A stretch of 64,000 bases of DNA, from assembly GCF_004212215.1 (NCBI RefSeq), contig NZ_QVFV01000001.1, positions 940,814 to 1,004,813 of the forward strand, read 5' to 3'. The first letter of the stretch is position 1. Every line of letters starts with the position of its first letter. Made by a program: the position numbers and the translations under genes. Shown here piece by piece: positions 5,792 through 44,987 of the stretch. The notes beneath the pieces are model-generated. The model saw nothing but the letters and a program-made list of their open reading frames with translations, was not told where the DNA came from and searched no databases. The DNA is from Leptolyngbya iicbica LK. Its GTDB lineage: Bacteria > Cyanobacteriota > Cyanobacteriia > Phormidesmidales > Phormidesmidaceae.

Positions 5792-7336
5792 TCATTCCTC
5801 CTCTGGTGCGACGTCTGCCGCCAACTCATCATCTGCGGGATCAGCAGTTTCTGCTGTCTCACCATCACCCAAGGCGACAGGGGTTTCCGCTGGACTCTCG
5901 GCTGAGCCTTCTTCTATGGTAGCGGCTGGTGCTGCTTCTGTTGTAGCGGCGTCCGGTTCTGTCGCCAGTGGGGTCTCGGTTTCGCCGTTAGCGGCAGCTC
6001 GGGCCGCCGCTTCCGCCGCTTCACGGGCATCTTCCTCTTCGGCAGCAGCCGCGATCGCGGCCAAACGAGCCGCTTTAGCTGCCTGTCGAGCTGCTTCTTC
6101 CTCACGACGAGCCGCTTCCGCTGCTTCGCGAGCCGCTTCTTCCGCCTGCCGAGCCGCTAGTTGCTCAGCAAGCTTGCGGTCTTCTTCGGCGTAGTCGTAT
6201 TTTGCCGTGTCTTTGATGTCGATTTTCCAGCCCGTCAACTTGGCCGCCAGACGGACATTCTGACCTTCTTTACCAATGGCTAAACTAAGCTGATCTTCGG
6301 GCACCAATACATGGGCCTGTCGATCTTCCGGGTTCATCAGGCGCACTTCATCCACTCGCGCTGGACTCAGCGCATTAGCAATGTAAGTTGCAGGATCCAG
6401 CGAATAACGAATCACGTCAATTTTTTCGCCACGCAATTCACTTACCACGGCTTGAATACGAGAGCCCCGAGCCCCGATGCAGGCTCCGACCGGATCAACA
6501 TCGCGCTCAGCAGTATCGACAGCGATTTTGGTGCGTGGCCCCACCGAGCGGGAGGGCGGATTCGCTTCCCGCGCGACAGCAACAATGCGAACGATTTCGT
6601 CCTCGATTTCGGGGACTTCGTTGGAAAATAGTTCCACTACTAACGCCGCATCGGCCCGCGAGACTAAGAGCTGTGGTCCTCGGTGCGAACCTTCGGAAAC
6701 TTTTTTCAGCACTACCCGAAACTGGGAGTTAGGGCGATAGTTATCATTGGGCAGTTGATCGCGCTTGAGCAACTCGGCTTCGACTTCTGGCTGCCCGGTG
6801 CCGCTGCTCACAGTCATAATGACCGACTGCCGCTCGAACCGCTGCACTTTTGCCGTCAGCACTGTGCCTTCTAAATCTTGAAACTCTTCTTGAATGAGTT
6901 TGCGCTGTTGGTCACGCAGCTTTTGCGCGAGCACCTGCTTGGTTTGGATGGCGGCCATGCGGCCAAAATCTTTCTGTTCTGGCGTCACATCCAACACCAC
7001 CACGTCACCGACTTGCGCCTCAGGAGCGACTTCCAGCACTTCTGCCAAGGCGATTTGGTGATCAGGGTTTTCCACTTCTTCGGCAATCGTTTTACTCGCT
7101 AGTACGCGAAAGCCCTGCTCGTCTTCGTATTCGATGTCAAGTTCAATATCAAAGTTATCAAAGTAGCCTTCCTCAAAGTTAACGCTATCCGCCGCCCGAT
7201 GGGTCCGACGAAAGCGCTCATATCCTTTGAGTAAGGCTTCTCGTAGCGCATTTTCTACTGCATATTTCGGCAAATTGCGCTGAGCGCTAATTTCATCAAT
7301 GGTTTCTTTTAGTTTTGGCAGGCTGACTAAAGACAT
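5792..7336 (-). CDS. nusA: Transcription elongation/termination factor NusA
   Basis: NusA binds RNA polymerase and controls pausing, termination and antitermination. The 514-residue product has the N-terminal polymerase-binding domain, an S1-like domain, and two KH-type RNA-binding domains (GARGSRIQAVVSEL and IGKEGQNVRLAAKLTGW). It ends in an alanine/glutamate-rich tail of about 110 residues, which is low complexity and lacks the acidic repeats of enterobacterial NusA. The open frame extends 21 codons further upstream, but the ATG at 7336 (MSLVSLPKL) matches the family start and is preceded by GAGG. It lies between rimP (97 bp upstream) and ylxR (19 bp downstream). A terminator in the rimP leader may make it part of a self-regulating operon. 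Confidence 0.96.
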   Translation of the reverse strand: MSLVSLPKLKETIDEISAQRNLPKYAVENALREALLKGYERFRRTHRAADSVNFEEGYFDNFDIELDIEYEDEQGFRVLASKTIAEEVENPDHQIALAEVLEVAPEAQVGDVVVLDVTPEQKDFGRMAAIQTKQVLAQKLRDQQRKLIQEEFQDLEGTVLTAKVQRFERQSVIMTVSSGTGQPEVEAELLKRDQLPNDNYRPNSQFRVVLKKVSEGSHRGPQLLVSRADAALVVELFSNEVPEIEDEIVRIVAVAREANPPSRSVGPRTKIAVDTAERDVDPVGACIGARGSRIQAVVSELRGEKIDVIRYSLDPATYIANALSPARVDEVRLMNPEDRQAHVLVPEDQLSLAIGKEGQNVRLAAKLTGWKIDIKDTAKYDYAEEDRKLAEQLAARQAEEAAREAAEAARREEEAARQAAKAARLAAIAAAAEEEDAREAAEAAARAAANGETETPLATEPDAATTEAAPAATIEEGSAESPAETPVALGDGETAETADPADDELAADVAPEEE

Positions 7337-40495: not shown

Positions 40496-43400
40496 ATGGT
40501 TCTAGACATTCTGGCTGCGATCGGATTGCGAGAAGCCGGGAGCTACGTAACGAAAGACGTATTGCTGCCATTGTTACAAGGCAGTTTGGAAGATTACGCA
40601 AAAGACTTCTTCAAGAGCTGTATCGCTGACGCTGCCGGGTTAGCCCAACAGGAACCCGTGCAAAAAGCGCTGGCCAAGGCTCTGAAGGCGTTTGTGGAAC
40701 TCGTGGAGGAAGAACTGGCGTTTCAAGGCTGCACCGGGGCGGAGATTCGCGATTTTTACGAGCTGCCGCTGCGCCAATTTATGCAGGATCAGGACGTGAA
40801 GGCGACGTTGGGCCGCGCCTTTGAGCCGGATTGTCGCGCCATTGATGCGGAGGTGCTGGCGCTACGGTGGCAAGCGTTGGAGCTGCGCCCCCTGCCAGAA
40901 GAGTTTGACTGGTCGCAGATTGGCAAGCAGTATGTGCGAGCCGTGAAAGGCATTTTGCGCAGTGACGATGCGCTGCGGGACTTGTTGAAGCTGCACAATC
41001 AGGAGGCGATGCGCCAGGGCATTGAGGAACTGGTGGGCATTCCGCCGGATTTTGATTTGCGGAAGTATCAGGAAACCCTGCGGGAGCAGTACGGCAACCT
41101 GAAGCTGGAGTCGCTGGATACCACGGGCTATGCCTACAACGACCTGAAGCTGTGGCGCATGTTCATTCCCCAGGATGTGCGCACCTGCCAGGAATTTAAC
41201 CCCAAGGTGTACGAAATCCCCAAGGAGAAGCTGCAGGAACTCCAGCAGCGGGGAGAACTGGATGCGGAAGCGCTGGAGGCCGCGCAGATTGAAGAATACC
41301 GCAAGACCTATGTGGAGCAGCCGATCCAGAATGTGCTGGAGGTGGTGGGACGCACAGAAGGCGTGGGGCAGCGGAGCCGTCCGGTGGCGGACTATGCCGT
41401 GGTGCTGGAGGATCCGGGGTCGGGGAAATCGACCCTGTTGCAGTATGTGGCCCTACAGTGGGCCGAGCAGCCCATTCGCGACTTGAAGGAACTGGCCCAG
41501 CGACCGCTGCCGCTGCTGATTGAGCTGCGGAAGTATGCGCGCGATCGCAACGACAAAAAGTGCAGCAGCATGGTGGAGTATCTGCACCAGGGGGATATTG
41601 CCTGTCGGCTAAACCAGCAGCGACTCCATGAGGTGCTGACGGCAGGCAATGCGGTGGCCCTGTTTGACGGCATTGATGAAGTGTTTGACCCCAACCTGCG
41701 GGATGTGGTGGTGACGGATATTCACCGCTTTACCAACAACTACCCCCAGGTGCAGGTAGTGGTGACCTCACGGTGGCTAGGGTATAAGGCGCAGACCCTA
41801 AGGGATGCGGGGTTTCAGCACTACATGCTGCAAGACCTGACGGATGATCAGATTGCGGAATTTATTGAGCGGTGGCACGACCAGACCTTTGCCGACGGGG
41901 CAGACAAGGTCCGCAAGCAGGAGCGGCTACACAAGGCGATTCGCGAATCGAAGGCGATTCGGGAGCTAGCGGGGAATCCGCTGCTGCTGACGATGATGGC
42001 AATTTTGAACCGCCACCAGGAATTACCGCGTGATCGACCGGAACTGTATAACCAGGCATCACGGGTGCTGCTGCACCAGTGGGATGTGGAGCGGAATTTG
42101 ATTGAGCAAAAGCTCGACCCGGTGACGATCGACTATCGGGATAAGCAGGCGATGCTGCGAAAGGTGGCGTTTCACATGCAGTCGGGGGAAGCGGGGCTGG
42201 CAGGCAACATTATCAGCGCCCAAGACCTGGAAGCGATTTTGACGGACTACTTGAAATCCATCGATGTGGAGCAGCCGCGAGATGTGGCGCGACGGATGAT
42301 TCAGCAGCTGCGAACCCGCAACTTTATCCTGTGCTATCTGGGAGCCGACAATTACGCCTTCGTTCACCGTACATTTTTGGAGTTTTTTGCCGCCTGGGCC
42401 TTTGTCTGGGAGTTTAAGGAAACTCAAACGATTACGTTTGAAGAACTACGTGATCAGACCTTTGGAGCACATTGGCAGGAGGAAAGTTGGCAGGAAGTGC
42501 TGCGGCTCATTGCCGGAATGTTAAATGTAACGTTTGCAGAAGAAATAATTCAGTTTCTTCTAGACAGAGATGACCGTAGCGAAGATTATAAATATCTTTT
42601 CCTAGCCGCAGAATGCTTGACAGAGATTAGGAAGCCTAACGCGCTCGAGAATATAAATAAGCTTCTTCTTGATTCTTTGAGAGCTTTGTTGTCTGTTGAG
42701 GGTACCTATGGTGTTAGGACAAAGGCAGTTGAGGTGATCGCACATACTTGGACTGATGCAAATACCTTGCAGTGGCTAAAATCTTTGTCTGTATCAGATG
42801 GTTGGGACGATAATTGGGATGTCCGTAGGGCGTCAATACAAGCAGTTGCAAAAATTTGGCACACAGAGGTTAGCATCCAAAGCTGGCTTGAGAAGAATCT
42901 TCTTCACGACTTAGATTGGAATGTGCGAGATGAAGCTATCGAAAGCTTGGTGCCATTGTTAGATAAAAGTCGAAACTTGAAGACAAGGTTAGGGGTAATA
43001 GTCGAAAGCGACGATGACGAGGATGTGCGCAGCGCAGCCGTGCAGGCATTAGCCCAAGGGTGGAAAGACGACCCCAATACATTGCCCTGGCTCAAAACCT
43101 GTGCCCAAAGTGATGAGCATTACGCTGTGCGGAGTGCGGCGGTGCAGGCGTTAGCCAAGGGGTGGAAAGACGACCCCGATACCTTGCCCATTCTCAAAAC
43201 CCGTGCCCAAAGTGATGAGCATTACGCTGTGCGGATGGCGGCGGTGCAGGCGTTAGCCAAGGGGTGGAAAGACGACCCCGATACCTTACCCATTCTCAAA
43301 ACCCGTGCCCAAAGTGATGACAATTACGCTTTGCGGAGAGCGGCGGTGCAGGAGTTAGCCAAAGGCTTCAAAGACGACCCCGAGACCTTACCGATCCTCA

Positions 43401-44044
43401 AAACCCGCGCCCAAACGGACGATCATTACGATGTCCGGATGGCGGCGGTGCAGGAGTTAGCCCAGGGGTGGAAAGACGACCCCGATACCTTGCCCATTCT
43501 CAAAACCCGTGCCCAAAGTGATGACAATTACGCTGTGCGGATGGCGGCGGTGCAGGCATTAGCGCAGGGGTGGAAAGACGACCCCGATACCTTGCCCATT
43601 CTCAAAACCCGTGCCCAAAGTGATGAGGATAACGCTGTGCGGATGGCGGCGGTGCAGGAGTTAGCCAAAGGCTTCAAAGACGACCCCGAGACCTTACCGA
43701 TCCTCAAAACCCGCGCCCAAACGGACGATCATTACGATGTCCGGATGGCGGCGGTGCAGGAGTTAGCCCAAGGCTTCAAAGACGACCCGACTTTGTTTGA
43801 GTTTTGGTGCGATCGCACGCTCAACGATCCCTTTGAAAGAGAGTATGACTGGCAAGGGAACCCTCGTCAAACTGCTCTCAACGTGCTGGTGCAGCAATAT
43901 CCCGACCACCCCAAAACCCTGGAACTGCTGCGCGACAGAGCCCACAACGACAGCGACGAGCAGCTCAGAGAATGGGCGACGAAGCAACTGGAGCAATTAA
44001 AAATGCAAAATTCTGGAAGCCCTGTGAGTGAGTTTATTGTTTAA
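40496..44044 (+). CDS. NACHT NTPase with C-terminal HEAT repeats (candidate NLR-like immune protein)
   Basis: The 1182-residue protein has three regions. Residues 1 to about 285 are helical, with no enzyme motif seen. The NACHT module (about 295-460) has a P-loop at 305-313 (EDPGSGKST, so the usual first glycine is Glu305), Walker B with LFDGIDEVFD (390-399) and the sensor-like VVVTSRW. Then come winged-helix/helical parts to about residue 680 and HEAT-type repeats from about 730 to 1100. The last 80 residues are a different helical module. Bacterial NACHT-repeat proteins are known antiphage STAND NTPases, so a defence role is plausible but not shown. No clear ribosome binding site lies before the ATG. 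Confidence 0.8.
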   Translation: MVLDILAAIGLREAGSYVTKDVLLPLLQGSLEDYAKDFFKSCIADAAGLAQQEPVQKALAKALKAFVELVEEELAFQGCTGAEIRDFYELPLRQFMQDQDVKATLGRAFEPDCRAIDAEVLALRWQALELRPLPEEFDWSQIGKQYVRAVKGILRSDDALRDLLKLHNQEAMRQGIEELVGIPPDFDLRKYQETLREQYGNLKLESLDTTGYAYNDLKLWRMFIPQDVRTCQEFNPKVYEIPKEKLQELQQRGELDAEALEAAQIEEYRKTYVEQPIQNVLEVVGRTEGVGQRSRPVADYAVVLEDPGSGKSTLLQYVALQWAEQPIRDLKELAQRPLPLLIELRKYARDRNDKKCSSMVEYLHQGDIACRLNQQRLHEVLTAGNAVALFDGIDEVFDPNLRDVVVTDIHRFTNNYPQVQVVVTSRWLGYKAQTLRDAGFQHYMLQDLTDDQIAEFIERWHDQTFADGADKVRKQERLHKAIRESKAIRELAGNPLLLTMMAILNRHQELPRDRPELYNQASRVLLHQWDVERNLIEQKLDPVTIDYRDKQAMLRKVAFHMQSGEAGLAGNIISAQDLEAILTDYLKSIDVEQPRDVARRMIQQLRTRNFILCYLGADNYAFVHRTFLEFFAAWAFVWEFKETQTITFEELRDQTFGAHWQEESWQEVLRLIAGMLNVTFAEEIIQFLLDRDDRSEDYKYLFLAAECLTEIRKPNALENINKLLLDSLRALLSVEGTYGVRTKAVEVIAHTWTDANTLQWLKSLSVSDGWDDNWDVRRASIQAVAKIWHTEVSIQSWLEKNLLHDLDWNVRDEAIESLVPLLDKSRNLKTRLGVIVESDDDEDVRSAAVQALAQGWKDDPNTLPWLKTCAQSDEHYAVRSAAVQALAKGWKDDPDTLPILKTRAQSDEHYAVRMAAVQALAKGWKDDPDTLPILKTRAQSDDNYALRRAAVQELAKGFKDDPETLPILKTRAQTDDHYDVRMAAVQELAQGWKDDPDTLPILKTRAQSDDNYAVRMAAVQALAQGWKDDPDTLPILKTRAQSDEDNAVRMAAVQELAKGFKDDPETLPILKTRAQTDDHYDVRMAAVQELAQGFKDDPTLFEFWCDRTLNDPFEREYDWQGNPRQTALNVLVQQYPDHPKTLELLRDRAHNDSDEQLREWATKQLEQLKMQNSGSPVSEFIV
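43022..43793 (+). repeat. Tandem 102-bp HEAT repeat array inside the NACHT gene
   Basis: Units start at 43022, 43124, 43226, 43328, 43430, 43532, 43634 and 43736 (the last is partial). Each codes for a 34-residue HEAT unit of the type VRMAAVQALAKGWKDDPDTL. Units 4-5 and 7-8 are almost base-identical at a distance of 306 bp, which shows a recent three-unit duplication. Differences fall mainly in the residues just after ILKTRAQ, at the likely exposed loop. Confidence 0.9.
43878..44013 (+). repeat. Direct repeat, left copy (3' end of NACHT gene)
   Basis: This 136-bp stretch codes for NVLVQQYPDHPKTLELLRDR and following residues at the end of the NACHT protein. It matches 44589-44724 in the same orientation with scattered base differences. 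The toxin-antitoxin pair lies between the copies. Confidence 0.85.
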
Positions 44045-44060
44045 AAAAACGGAGAGAATG

Positions 44061-44288
44061 ATGACAACCTTATTGGAACAAGCATTTAGAGAAGCCTCAA
44101 GATTGCCAAGCGAGCTTCAGGATGAGATTGCTCAGCAACTGCTAGACGACATTGAGAATGAACTTAAGTGGCAAGCAACCTTTTCTGACTCAGATACCGA
44201 CATAGGCAGTTTTGCCGCAATGGCTCAAGCCGCTCTGGTCGAAGACGACGCAGGCAAAACGGAAGAAAAAGGCTTTGGCGAAGTGTAA
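44061..44288 (+). CDS. Antitoxin-like small protein of a RelE/ParE-type module
   Basis: This 75-residue acidic protein (LEQAFREASRLPSELQDEIAQQLLDDIENE) has the helical layout of cyanobacterial antitoxins paired with RelE/ParE toxins. The second of two adjacent ATGs (44061) stands 6 nt after GGAG, so it is chosen over 44058. The longest frame starts 33 bp earlier within the NACHT 3' end. The stop codon overlaps the toxin start by 1 bp (TAATG), the usual coupled arrangement. Confidence 0.75.
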   Translation: MTTLLEQAFREASRLPSELQDEIAQQLLDDIENELKWQATFSDSDTDIGSFAAMAQAALVEDDAGKTEEKGFGEV

Positions 44289-44584: not shown

Positions 44585-44770
44585 TTGTTCAACGTATTCA
44601 TGCAGCAATATCCTGACCATCCCAAAACCCTGGAACTGCTGCGCGACAGAGCCCAAAACGACAACGATGAGCAGTTTAGAGATTGGGCGACGGAGCAACT
44701 GGAGCAATTCAAAATTCAAAATGCAAATCTAAAGAAGCAGGAGTCTGTATTTGCTCATGAAATCCCTTAA
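44585..44770 (+). pseudogene. Remnant of a NACHT-HEAT C-terminus
   Basis: The 61-codon frame opens at a TTG and reads QQYPDHPKTLELLRDRAQND, closely matching the last 45 or so residues of the NACHT protein. It has no P-loop, no proper start and no ribosome binding site, so it is a duplicated fragment rather than a gene. Its end overlaps the DUF433 start by 14 bp. Confidence 0.75.
44589..44724 (+). repeat. Direct repeat, right copy
   Basis: Second copy of the 136-bp sequence at 43878-44013, 711 bp downstream and in the same orientation. Similarity fades upstream of TTCAACGT and downstream of the A-rich end (CAAAATGC). Confidence 0.85.
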
Positions 44771-44987
44771 TCGCATCACGCTCAATCCTGGAGTCATGGG
44801 CGGCAAGCCTTGTATCCGAGGGCTGCGAGTCACAGTTGGCGCTGTCGTGGGGCTTTTAGCCAGTGGGCGTTCCACCGACGACGTGCTCAAAGCGTATCCC
44901 TATCTAGAAATTGAGGATATTTATGAAGCCCTCACCTACGCCGCTTGGCGAGTTGATGAGATTGAAGTGCCTCTGGTCTCCACATGA
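44757..44987 (+). CDS. DUF433 antitoxin-like protein
   Basis: This 76-residue protein (RITLNPGVMGGKPCIRGLRV, then EDIYEALTYAAWR) is a typical DUF433 member. The family has a winged-helix-like fold and is normally encoded just upstream of a PIN-like DUF5615 toxin. No such toxin follows: the sequence after the stop contains only frames shorter than 25 codons before the convergent GST gene. It may be an orphan antitoxin or the survivor of a broken pair. AGGAG lies 13 nt before the ATG. Confidence 0.85.
   Translation: MKSLNRITLNPGVMGGKPCIRGLRVTVGAVVGLLASGRSTDDVLKAYPYLEIEDIYEALTYAAWRVDEIEVPLVST

Follow-up and report, generated by a model that had tools for sequence, protein, structure and literature searches.

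A cyanobacterial NLR-related gene that probably encodes a receptor with a recombining, exchangeable HEAT-repeat sensor

The 64,000-nucleotide stretch of Leptolyngbya iicbica LK DNA analysed here (the window) carries a gene that, judged from its sequence and that of its relatives, probably encodes an NLR-like bacterial receptor whose sensor recombines and can be exchanged, in analogy with the fungal NLRs of high internal conservation (HIC NLRs). Such a receptor would extend the rapidly recombining NLR sensors of fungal type to bacteria, with HEAT repeats. Downstream of the gene lies a worn, same-strand copy of its own 3’end, and we report such copies here as new; in the literature searched, outside which most subscription journals lay, we found no description of a recombining bacterial HEAT NLR sensor with orphan ends.

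The gene (Table 1) is the only full-length copy of its kind in the genome, and its NNH2-NACHT-HEAT order follows the tripartite plan of an N-terminal effector/signalling domain, a NACHT and a C-terminal repeat sensor. Membership of the NACHT family (Walker A and B) is backed by a Pfam score over the cut-off, and K311, S312, D394 and E395 show no variation across 47 aligned sequences. The first glycine of the P-loop, present in 46 of the 47, is replaced by E305 in the window protein, and the window allele may therefore be weakened. In structure comparisons of the predicted model, residues 182-783 resemble NLRC4/NOD2 (Z 19-20) and residues 825-1134 match the alphaRep structure 4zv6 (Z 20.9, 278 aligned, rmsd 5.6), with pLDDT at about 90 or more across most of the array. 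The NNH2 model is modest (mean pLDDT 70.3) and none of the matches listed against solved structures was informative (best Foldseek E 0.44; best VIA Z 4.3, rmsd 3.4, 93 aligned), so we assign NNH2 no function from its fold; a literature search for the name listed unrelated chemistry only. Among the relatives, one from Azotobacter has a SIR2-like domain ahead of the NACHT and the same type of array behind it, and one on a Gloeocapsa plasmid has a short and diverged arm. Other identities were rejected: the phycobilisome HEAT proteins NblB and CpcF on NCBIfam scores (47.6 against a cut-off of 300 bits and 34.1 against 220), and a phage gene on the lack of any match to the window gene in phage records, the PHROGs that match the NACHT part being of unknown function. 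PADLOC gave only a weak match (E 2e-4), a scan for promoters and terminators yielded nothing informative, and none of the neighbouring genes examined points to defence except the small toxin-antitoxin-type genes.

Table 1. Features of the receptor locus (positions within the window).
Feature	Position	Strand	Details
NNH2-NACHT-HEAT gene, NLR-related receptor	40496..44044	+	1182 aa; Pfam NNH2 7e-62, NACHT 1e-9, HEAT_2 1e-62
NNH2 N-terminal helical domain, aa 27-209	40574..41122	+	Pfam PF22734; effector/signalling slot
NACHT NTPase, aa 306-462	41411..41881	+	Pfam PF05729
Non-repetitive start of sensor arm, exchangeable, aa ~675-843	42518..43024	+	identity to close relatives: core 87-94%, here 24-33%
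Seven complete 102-bp HEAT units	43025..43738	+	each unit 34 aa, in frame
Longest exact repeat, 125 bp	43340..43464	+	recurs at 43646-43770 (+306)
Partial eighth unit (about half)	43739..43789	+	unit alignment
3’end “cap” of receptor gene	43878..44011	+	ungapped over 134 bp, 88.8% identity with 44589-44722
Small ORF of 76 aa, putative antitoxin gene	44058..44288	+	position and overlap with toxin ORF; no Pfam match
ParE-like toxin gene, 91 aa	44288..44563	+	Pfam PF24732 4e-9
Orphan copy of receptor 3’end, putative displaced former end	44589..44722	+	colinear over 412 bp with L090 gene end and DUF433
DUF433 gene	44757..44987	+	Pfam 1.9e-24; L090 copy 80% identical, directly behind receptor gene

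The array of the initial annotation was confirmed, the 102-bp tandem repeat by TRF (43040-43788, 7.3 copies, score 1050) and the seven complete units and partial eighth by unit alignment, whereas its “306-bp duplication” proved inaccurate: what recurs is a near-identical tract of about 155 bp (43331-43487) at a three-unit spacing of 306 bp, with three mismatches in 43331-43339 and none from there until 43465. Units 4-5 do recur in units 7-8, with 125 bp repeated exactly. Units 3 and 5 (98 of 102 positions identical) are about as alike as units 4 and 7 (99 of 102). The array is therefore best described as two unit types, A (units 2, 3, 5 and 6) and B (units 4 and 7), plus a diverged unit 1. Silent positions, said to be largely unchanged, are so within a type (differences at 0.5-3 of about 22) but not between types (at 7.5-10 of 22), and taking every pair among units 1-7 together gives a pS of 0.276 and a pN of 0.103. 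No paralogue that could have donated units was found elsewhere in the genome, and this source was rejected.

We compared units across the family, keeping 33 genes and dropping the 25 of 58 members without at least three good units side by side. For 167 of 254 units the nearest relative lies in the same gene (8.7 expected), which supports the proposed recent expansion or gene conversion; by this comparison, units are homogenised within genes. Unit number and order differ between species even among relatives with nearly the same core; an array unchanged in unit number and order across distant relatives, named at the outset as the result that would refute expansion, was not found. The arm as a whole varies as well: in 18 of 21 pairs whose cores are 82-94% identical, the middle segment is only 22-38% identical, and in one relative (L012) the middle segment is nearest to that of L095 (57%), whereas its core is 61% identical to that of L095 and 87% to that of the window gene. 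On these alignments there is arm turnover between species, in which the arm would be swapped in full, starting near residue 675, and the core kept.

About one in four of the relatives examined carries worn copies of the 3’end downstream of the gene, often separated from it by toxin-antitoxin genes. Such orphan ends occur at 12 of 45 loci in a first count (L098 and L105 of the 47 were dropped, as the array continues there in another frame) and at 4 of 18 in a second set (20 stretches fetched, L184 and L199 untestable; several of the tested genes end without a cap), and the same pattern was seen in 1 of 96 other ORFs used as control. A profile search for the cap gave 23 matches, every one on the strand of the gene and within 3 kb, spread over 16 of the 56 stretches downstream (14 of 56 without L058 and L095, whose matches lie at most 125 bp from the gene end and may be their own cap out of frame), and none in 49 upstream stretches. 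In a set of 21 orphans, which omits L096 and L119, both positive in the first count, 6 are colinear with the intact gene end of another genome and run on into the gene directly behind the receptor there, so that orphan copies look like displaced former gene ends; the other 15 show no colinearity with any gene end examined. The ends of the matches vary from locus to locus, and thus no fixed attachment site was seen; an integron cassette array, which would have attC sites with fixed ends and an IntI integrase, was judged unlikely on the same grounds, and one heptamer similar to the integron core-site consensus, located at the orphan copy in the window, was taken by eye for a chance likeness.

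The orphan ends and toxin-antitoxin genes might instead be bystanders, arising by local tandem duplication or as mobile small genes in a tolerated spot, with no tie to sensor exchange. This is possible, if rather doubtful. The variable match ends fit it, as does a Y1 (IS200-like) transposase gene near the L125 locus, an ORF of similar kind being present in L181. For 10 of 21 orphans the closest gene cap belongs to the own locus, which lends it some weight; that it is so for only 10 accords better with import than with local duplication, a point that is not decisive. Against bystanders stand the confinement of profile matches to the downstream side, one strand and 3 kb, the six orphans that continue into the gene behind another genome’s receptor, and the rarity of the pattern in other ORFs.

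To ask where amino-acid change is concentrated in the units, we took the positions randomised in alphaRep (numbers from PMC3754942) and mapped them by VR register in the alignment, so that alphaRep 18, 19, 22, 23, 26 and 30 correspond to unit positions 33, 34, 3, 4, 7 and 11; an earlier set (positions 3, 33 and 34) had been picked after seeing the data, and the alphaRep set is external, yet was looked up after the site table had been seen. Pooled over the 33 genes, pN/pS at the alphaRep positions is 2.61 (1.77-4.01) for unit pairs at least 90% identical, 1.46 (1.11-1.97) for pairs at least 80% identical and 1.12 (0.99-1.27) for all pairs, and at the other positions 0.61 and 0.43 at the 90% and 80% thresholds, respectively. 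By this measure, pN/pS is above 1 at the candidate binding positions in the pooled family. The expected excess of amino-acid change at variable codons is thus present in the family but not in the window gene alone, where pN at these positions (0.165) stays below pS (0.276). A young solenoid kept for stability, in which slippage and gene conversion spread units, variable surface positions are under relaxed constraint and the partner is fixed and non-immune, as in a STAND regulator, would leave no selection visible in the window gene, and youth and stability have been offered as the explanation for highly repetitive prokaryotic WD40 proteins (PMC5587647). We nevertheless consider it unlikely, since relaxed constraint brings pN/pS to 1 at most and 2.6 (1.8-4.0) was found at positions named beforehand; in addition, the arm is swapped as a block and the same type of array exists behind a SIR2-NACHT.

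A short-read assembly artefact as the source of the 125-bp exact repeat and of the number of units is improbable: in Podospora, arrays of this kind do gain or lose units when assembled from short reads (PMC12222747), but the window contig exceeds 1.37 Mb with the array frame open, and long arrays of relatives sit in megabase contigs (5.46 Mb in L089, 6.5 Mb in L113). Diversification of the array by a reverse-transcriptase system (DGR), as described for NACHT-linked sensors of other multicellular bacteria (PMC10907252), is hardly credible and was rejected, because the genome has no reverse transcriptase match (PF00078) at E 0.001 and the variation is spread over repeated units rather than held in a single variable region.

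In the receptor reading that we prefer, an N-terminal helical domain would occupy the effector slot, the NACHT would act as switch and the C-terminal HEAT solenoid as sensor. Recombination inside the gene would duplicate, lose and homogenise units, amino-acid changes would be favoured on the candidate binding face of the solenoid, of which the six named positions per unit are direct candidates for binding, and after arm exchange the old 3’end would stay as an orphan copy with small genes, often toxin-antitoxin pairs, behind it. The ligand may be a protein of a phage or other invader whose binding triggers NACHT assembly; array and cap sequences held in common may recombine and so drive the exchange, and the toxin-antitoxin genes may help to retain the locus or act with the receptor. 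More tentatively, and as something we hold quite possible without thinking it probable, the receptor 3’end could be a recombination platform at which an incoming arm, cap and toxin-antitoxin cassette recombines at the core on one flank and at a cap copy on the other; former ends would accumulate behind the gene and document its earlier sensors, and toxin-antitoxin cassettes from a common pool would move with the receptor 3’end rather than by an integrase. If the orphan ends are indeed displaced former ends, past exchanges of the sensor could be read from them, and they would connect NLRs with toxin-antitoxin cassettes.

Among known systems, the Rhs/CDI polymorphic toxins also carry remnants of former 3’ends stacked behind a gene with an exchanged 3’part, and if the platform exists, bacteria would exchange NLR sensors much as toxin tips are exchanged in Rhs systems. 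The family studied here differs in that the exchanged part is a sensor and not a toxin tip, the remnants are short caps, and the intervening genes are of toxin-antitoxin type instead of tip immunity genes. The artificial HEAT-like binders alphaRep (PMC3754942; 4zv6) share the fold and the aligned variable positions, but are engineered and have a shorter module, whereas the window array is natural, with 34 aa per unit, and sits inside an NLR-related protein. DGR-diversified NACHT/STAND sensors, as reported in PMC10907252, likewise belong to multicellular bacteria and form the variable sensing part of NACHT-type proteins; the variation of the window gene would instead arise by repeat recombination, in a genome with no RT match. 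Anti-phage bNACHT proteins share the NACHT, the N-terminal slot and a C-terminal sensor region with the window gene; bNACHT25, as described in PMC12169576, has an NCH1 C-terminal domain and a nuclease, whereas in the window gene, known from sequence, no catalytic domain is known and the putative sensor is a long HEAT array that varies between relatives.

The closest parallel, which the initial annotation had aptly drawn, is with the fungal HIC NLRs, represented by the NACHT-WD40 proteins HET-D, HET-E and HET-R and by NACHT-ANK and TPR forms (PMC4986451, PMC12222747). HIC repeats are defined in PMC4986451 as units that share 85% identity or more across a minimum of 100 aa, a definition that counts amino acids, while the 76 to 99 of 102 identical positions between units 1-7 of the window gene are nucleotides. 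As these sources describe them, the fungal receptors and the window family share a NACHT or related switch, C-terminal near-identical units, concerted evolution and differences in unit number, seen here between species. The diversifying selection at few surface positions in the fungal receptors may have a counterpart in the pN/pS above 1 of the pooled family, a signal that the window gene alone does not show. The window gene differs in being bacterial, in having HEAT in place of WD40, ANK or TPR repeats and NNH2 in the effector slot, and its family in having orphan 3’ends with toxin-antitoxin genes and no known incompatibility function.

In its own genome (5.7 Mb, 16 contigs), the putative receptor gene of the window (see table) is the sole full-length copy; beyond it, the search matched a distant NACHT gene (29% identity), an orphan 3' end and, weakly, a HEAT sequence. 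At E values up to 1e-20 the protein was found in 38 of the 59 relatives, and at E values up to 1e-100 its core, the part ahead of the sensor arm, was found in 68 of 388 genomes belonging to the class; the family sample that we analysed comprises 58 distinct members. The first glycine of the window P-loop is replaced by glutamate (E305, 41408-41410), although glycine occupies this position in 46 of 47 aligned sequences, and judging from this residue the window allele may be weakened rather than fully active. A short tandem repeat (21/42 bp) also lies at window positions 6065-6158.

Receptor gene of the window and the parts of its protein
Feature	Position in window	Position or length in protein	Remark
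Receptor gene	40496-44044	1182 aa	repeat array at its 3' end
NNH2		aa 27-209	
NACHT		aa 306-462	
HEAT repeats		C-terminal part	encoded by array

Among close relatives, identity falls at about residue 675, where the variable sensor arm begins, and mostly recovers in the last 100 residues. Seven close genes have cores that are 82-94% identical, but their middle segments share 22-38% in 18 of 21 pairs and 68-76% in the other three (those among loci L089, L042 and L043). Moreover, the L012 middle segment is nearest to that of L095, yet the L095 core is just 61% identical to the L012 core. Because core and middle-segment identities disagree in this way, these alignments argue that the sensor arm is exchanged between genes and not simply fast-drifting. 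By counts from draft genomes, which may be off, and in comparisons that are all between species, the core-closest relatives carry about 9 (L089), 17 (L042), 3-4 (L043 and L012) and about 2 (L090) good units, and L044, also close in core, has zero units of the near-identical kind.

The window array consists of seven full 102-bp units (43025-43738) and half of an eighth. Units 2, 3, 5 and 6 belong to one type, matching one another at 95-98 of 102 positions; units 4 and 7 make up a second, identical at 99 of 102; and unit 1 has diverged, sharing 76-89 of 102 with the others. The longest stretch repeated without a mismatch measures 125 bp, its two copies offset by 306 bp; thus, while the initial annotation had the spacing of its 306-bp duplication right, the copied tract is only ~155 bp, and its statement that silent sites are largely unchanged holds within a unit type but not across types. 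An AlphaFold2 model (47 sequences; mean pLDDT 82.4, pTM 0.56, mostly at least 90 over the array) matches NLRC4 and NOD2 over residues 182-783 (Z 19-20), and over residues 825-1134 it matches the engineered HEAT-like alphaRep binder 4zv6 (Z 20.9, rmsd 5.6, 278 aligned, 24% identity) as well as other solenoids.

The unit statistics cover 254 units from 33 genes, each of which has three or more good units side by side. Units share a mean nucleotide identity of 0.716 within genes versus 0.563 between genes, and the nearest neighbour lies in the same gene for 167 of the 254 (expected 8.7); higher-order repeats are visible by eye in long arrays such as those of L042 and L113. The array also resembles the artificial binder 4zv6 in sequence (E 3.6e-13), and the randomised alphaRep positions, 18, 19, 22, 23, 26 and 30 (PMC3754942), correspond to unit positions 33, 34, 3, 4, 7 and 11. 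At these positions, which an external source supplied, pN/pS (with pS taken across all sites; bootstrap intervals over genes) was 1.12 (0.99-1.27) for all unit pairs, 1.46 (1.11-1.97) for pairs at least 80% identical and 2.61 (1.77-4.01) for pairs at least 90% identical, against 0.59, 0.43 and 0.61 elsewhere, simple counts that ignore the shared ancestry of unit pairs in one gene, which the gene bootstrap only partly corrects. When sites were picked in half the genes and tested in the rest, the medians were 1.21, 1.62 and 3.03. Units 1-7 of the window gene alone gave a pS of 0.276, with pN 0.165 at the alphaRep positions and 0.088 elsewhere, so that pN/pS there is not above 1, though the direction is that of the pooled family.

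The 3' end of the window gene (its cap, 43878-44011) recurs as an orphan end at 44589-44722 over 134 bp at 88.8% identity; the interval holds a small ORF followed by a ParE-like toxin gene. Orphans were found at 14 of 47 family loci for which 600 bp or more of downstream sequence was available, or 12 of 45 after removal of two loci whose array runs on out of frame, and at 4 of 18 loci of a second set, versus a recurring 3' end in 1 of 96 control ORFs of at least 250 aa (mechanical ORFs on both strands, window gene excluded). The two removed loci, L098 and L105, have arrays continuing past the stop codon in another frame, as in a broken or mis-assembled gene; the sole control match is an ORF of L130 (genome G011) ending at 2786 (140 bp, 93%). 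A profile of 45 caps gave 23 matches in 16 of 56 downstream stretches (335 kb), each in the orientation of the gene and no more than 3 kb away, and 0 in 49 upstream stretches (108 kb). Searching 12 whole genomes with one cap protein returned 25 matches, nearly all at or close behind the ends of such genes; follow-up covered all but the two on contig 110 of G165 and contig 75 of G151.

At L090, whose core is 88% identical, DUF433 directly follows the gene end, and the two are colinear over 412 bp with the window orphan and its DUF433. By this colinearity, the window orphan appears to sit where the former gene end was, with the ParE-like pair and one cap in front. When one fixed criterion was applied, 6 of 21 orphans proved colinear with the end of the gene in another genome plus the sequence behind it, and for 10 of 21 the nearest gene cap is that of their own locus. 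A simple route to this layout would be recombination with one crossover in the core or array and the other in a cap copy; integration of a circle carrying a cap and a toxin-antitoxin pair would serve equally.

A Pfam scan of 20 hand-picked intervening ORFs plus those of the window found toxin or antitoxin matches in the window (ParE-like), L125, L126 (two), L049 (two PIN, one AF2212-like) and L118 (HicA/HicB), and matches below the cut-off at L056 and L123. The 47 ORFs from 14 loci include 11 groups common to at least two loci, in differing order. As gene order stands, what links the toxin-antitoxin cassettes to sensor exchange is a positional correlation. Adjoining orphan ends are also a Y1 (IS200-like) transposase gene (Pfam) at L125 (5703-6161) and a similar ORF at L181 (54-521 bp downstream of the receptor gene); near the stop of that gene in L181, a 24-base stretch also matches the gene's end in inverted orientation.

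The NNH2 domain had no informative structural match among the matches listed. In a relative on an Azotobacter chroococcum plasmid (L202, 5377-8286), SIR2_2 precedes NACHT and the array is of the window type (adjacent 34-mers up to 94% identical); an IS3 transposase gene lies behind it. The NACHT protein of a Streptomyces anulatus plasmid (L203, 4833-8441) has HEAT units up to 85% identical, and an NB-ARC gene lies nearby. The sirtuin defence protein DSR2 is reported to deplete NAD+ upon phage infection, and this comparison supports a putative effector role for the N-terminal slot.

Fungal NLRs are described as having near-identical units that evolve in concert, with selection acting at few positions (PMC4986451; PMC12222747). 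High internal identity and enrichment in cyanobacteria are on record for prokaryotic WD40 proteins (PMC5587647), and DGR diversification for NACHT sensors (PMC10907252). The literature searched yielded neither a NACHT-HEAT protein with these properties nor orphan ends with toxin-antitoxin genes. Because those precedents are known and the NACHT-HEAT version was absent from that literature, we regard the receptor as a variant of known receptors, and the orphan ends as the part of the finding that could be more than such a variant.
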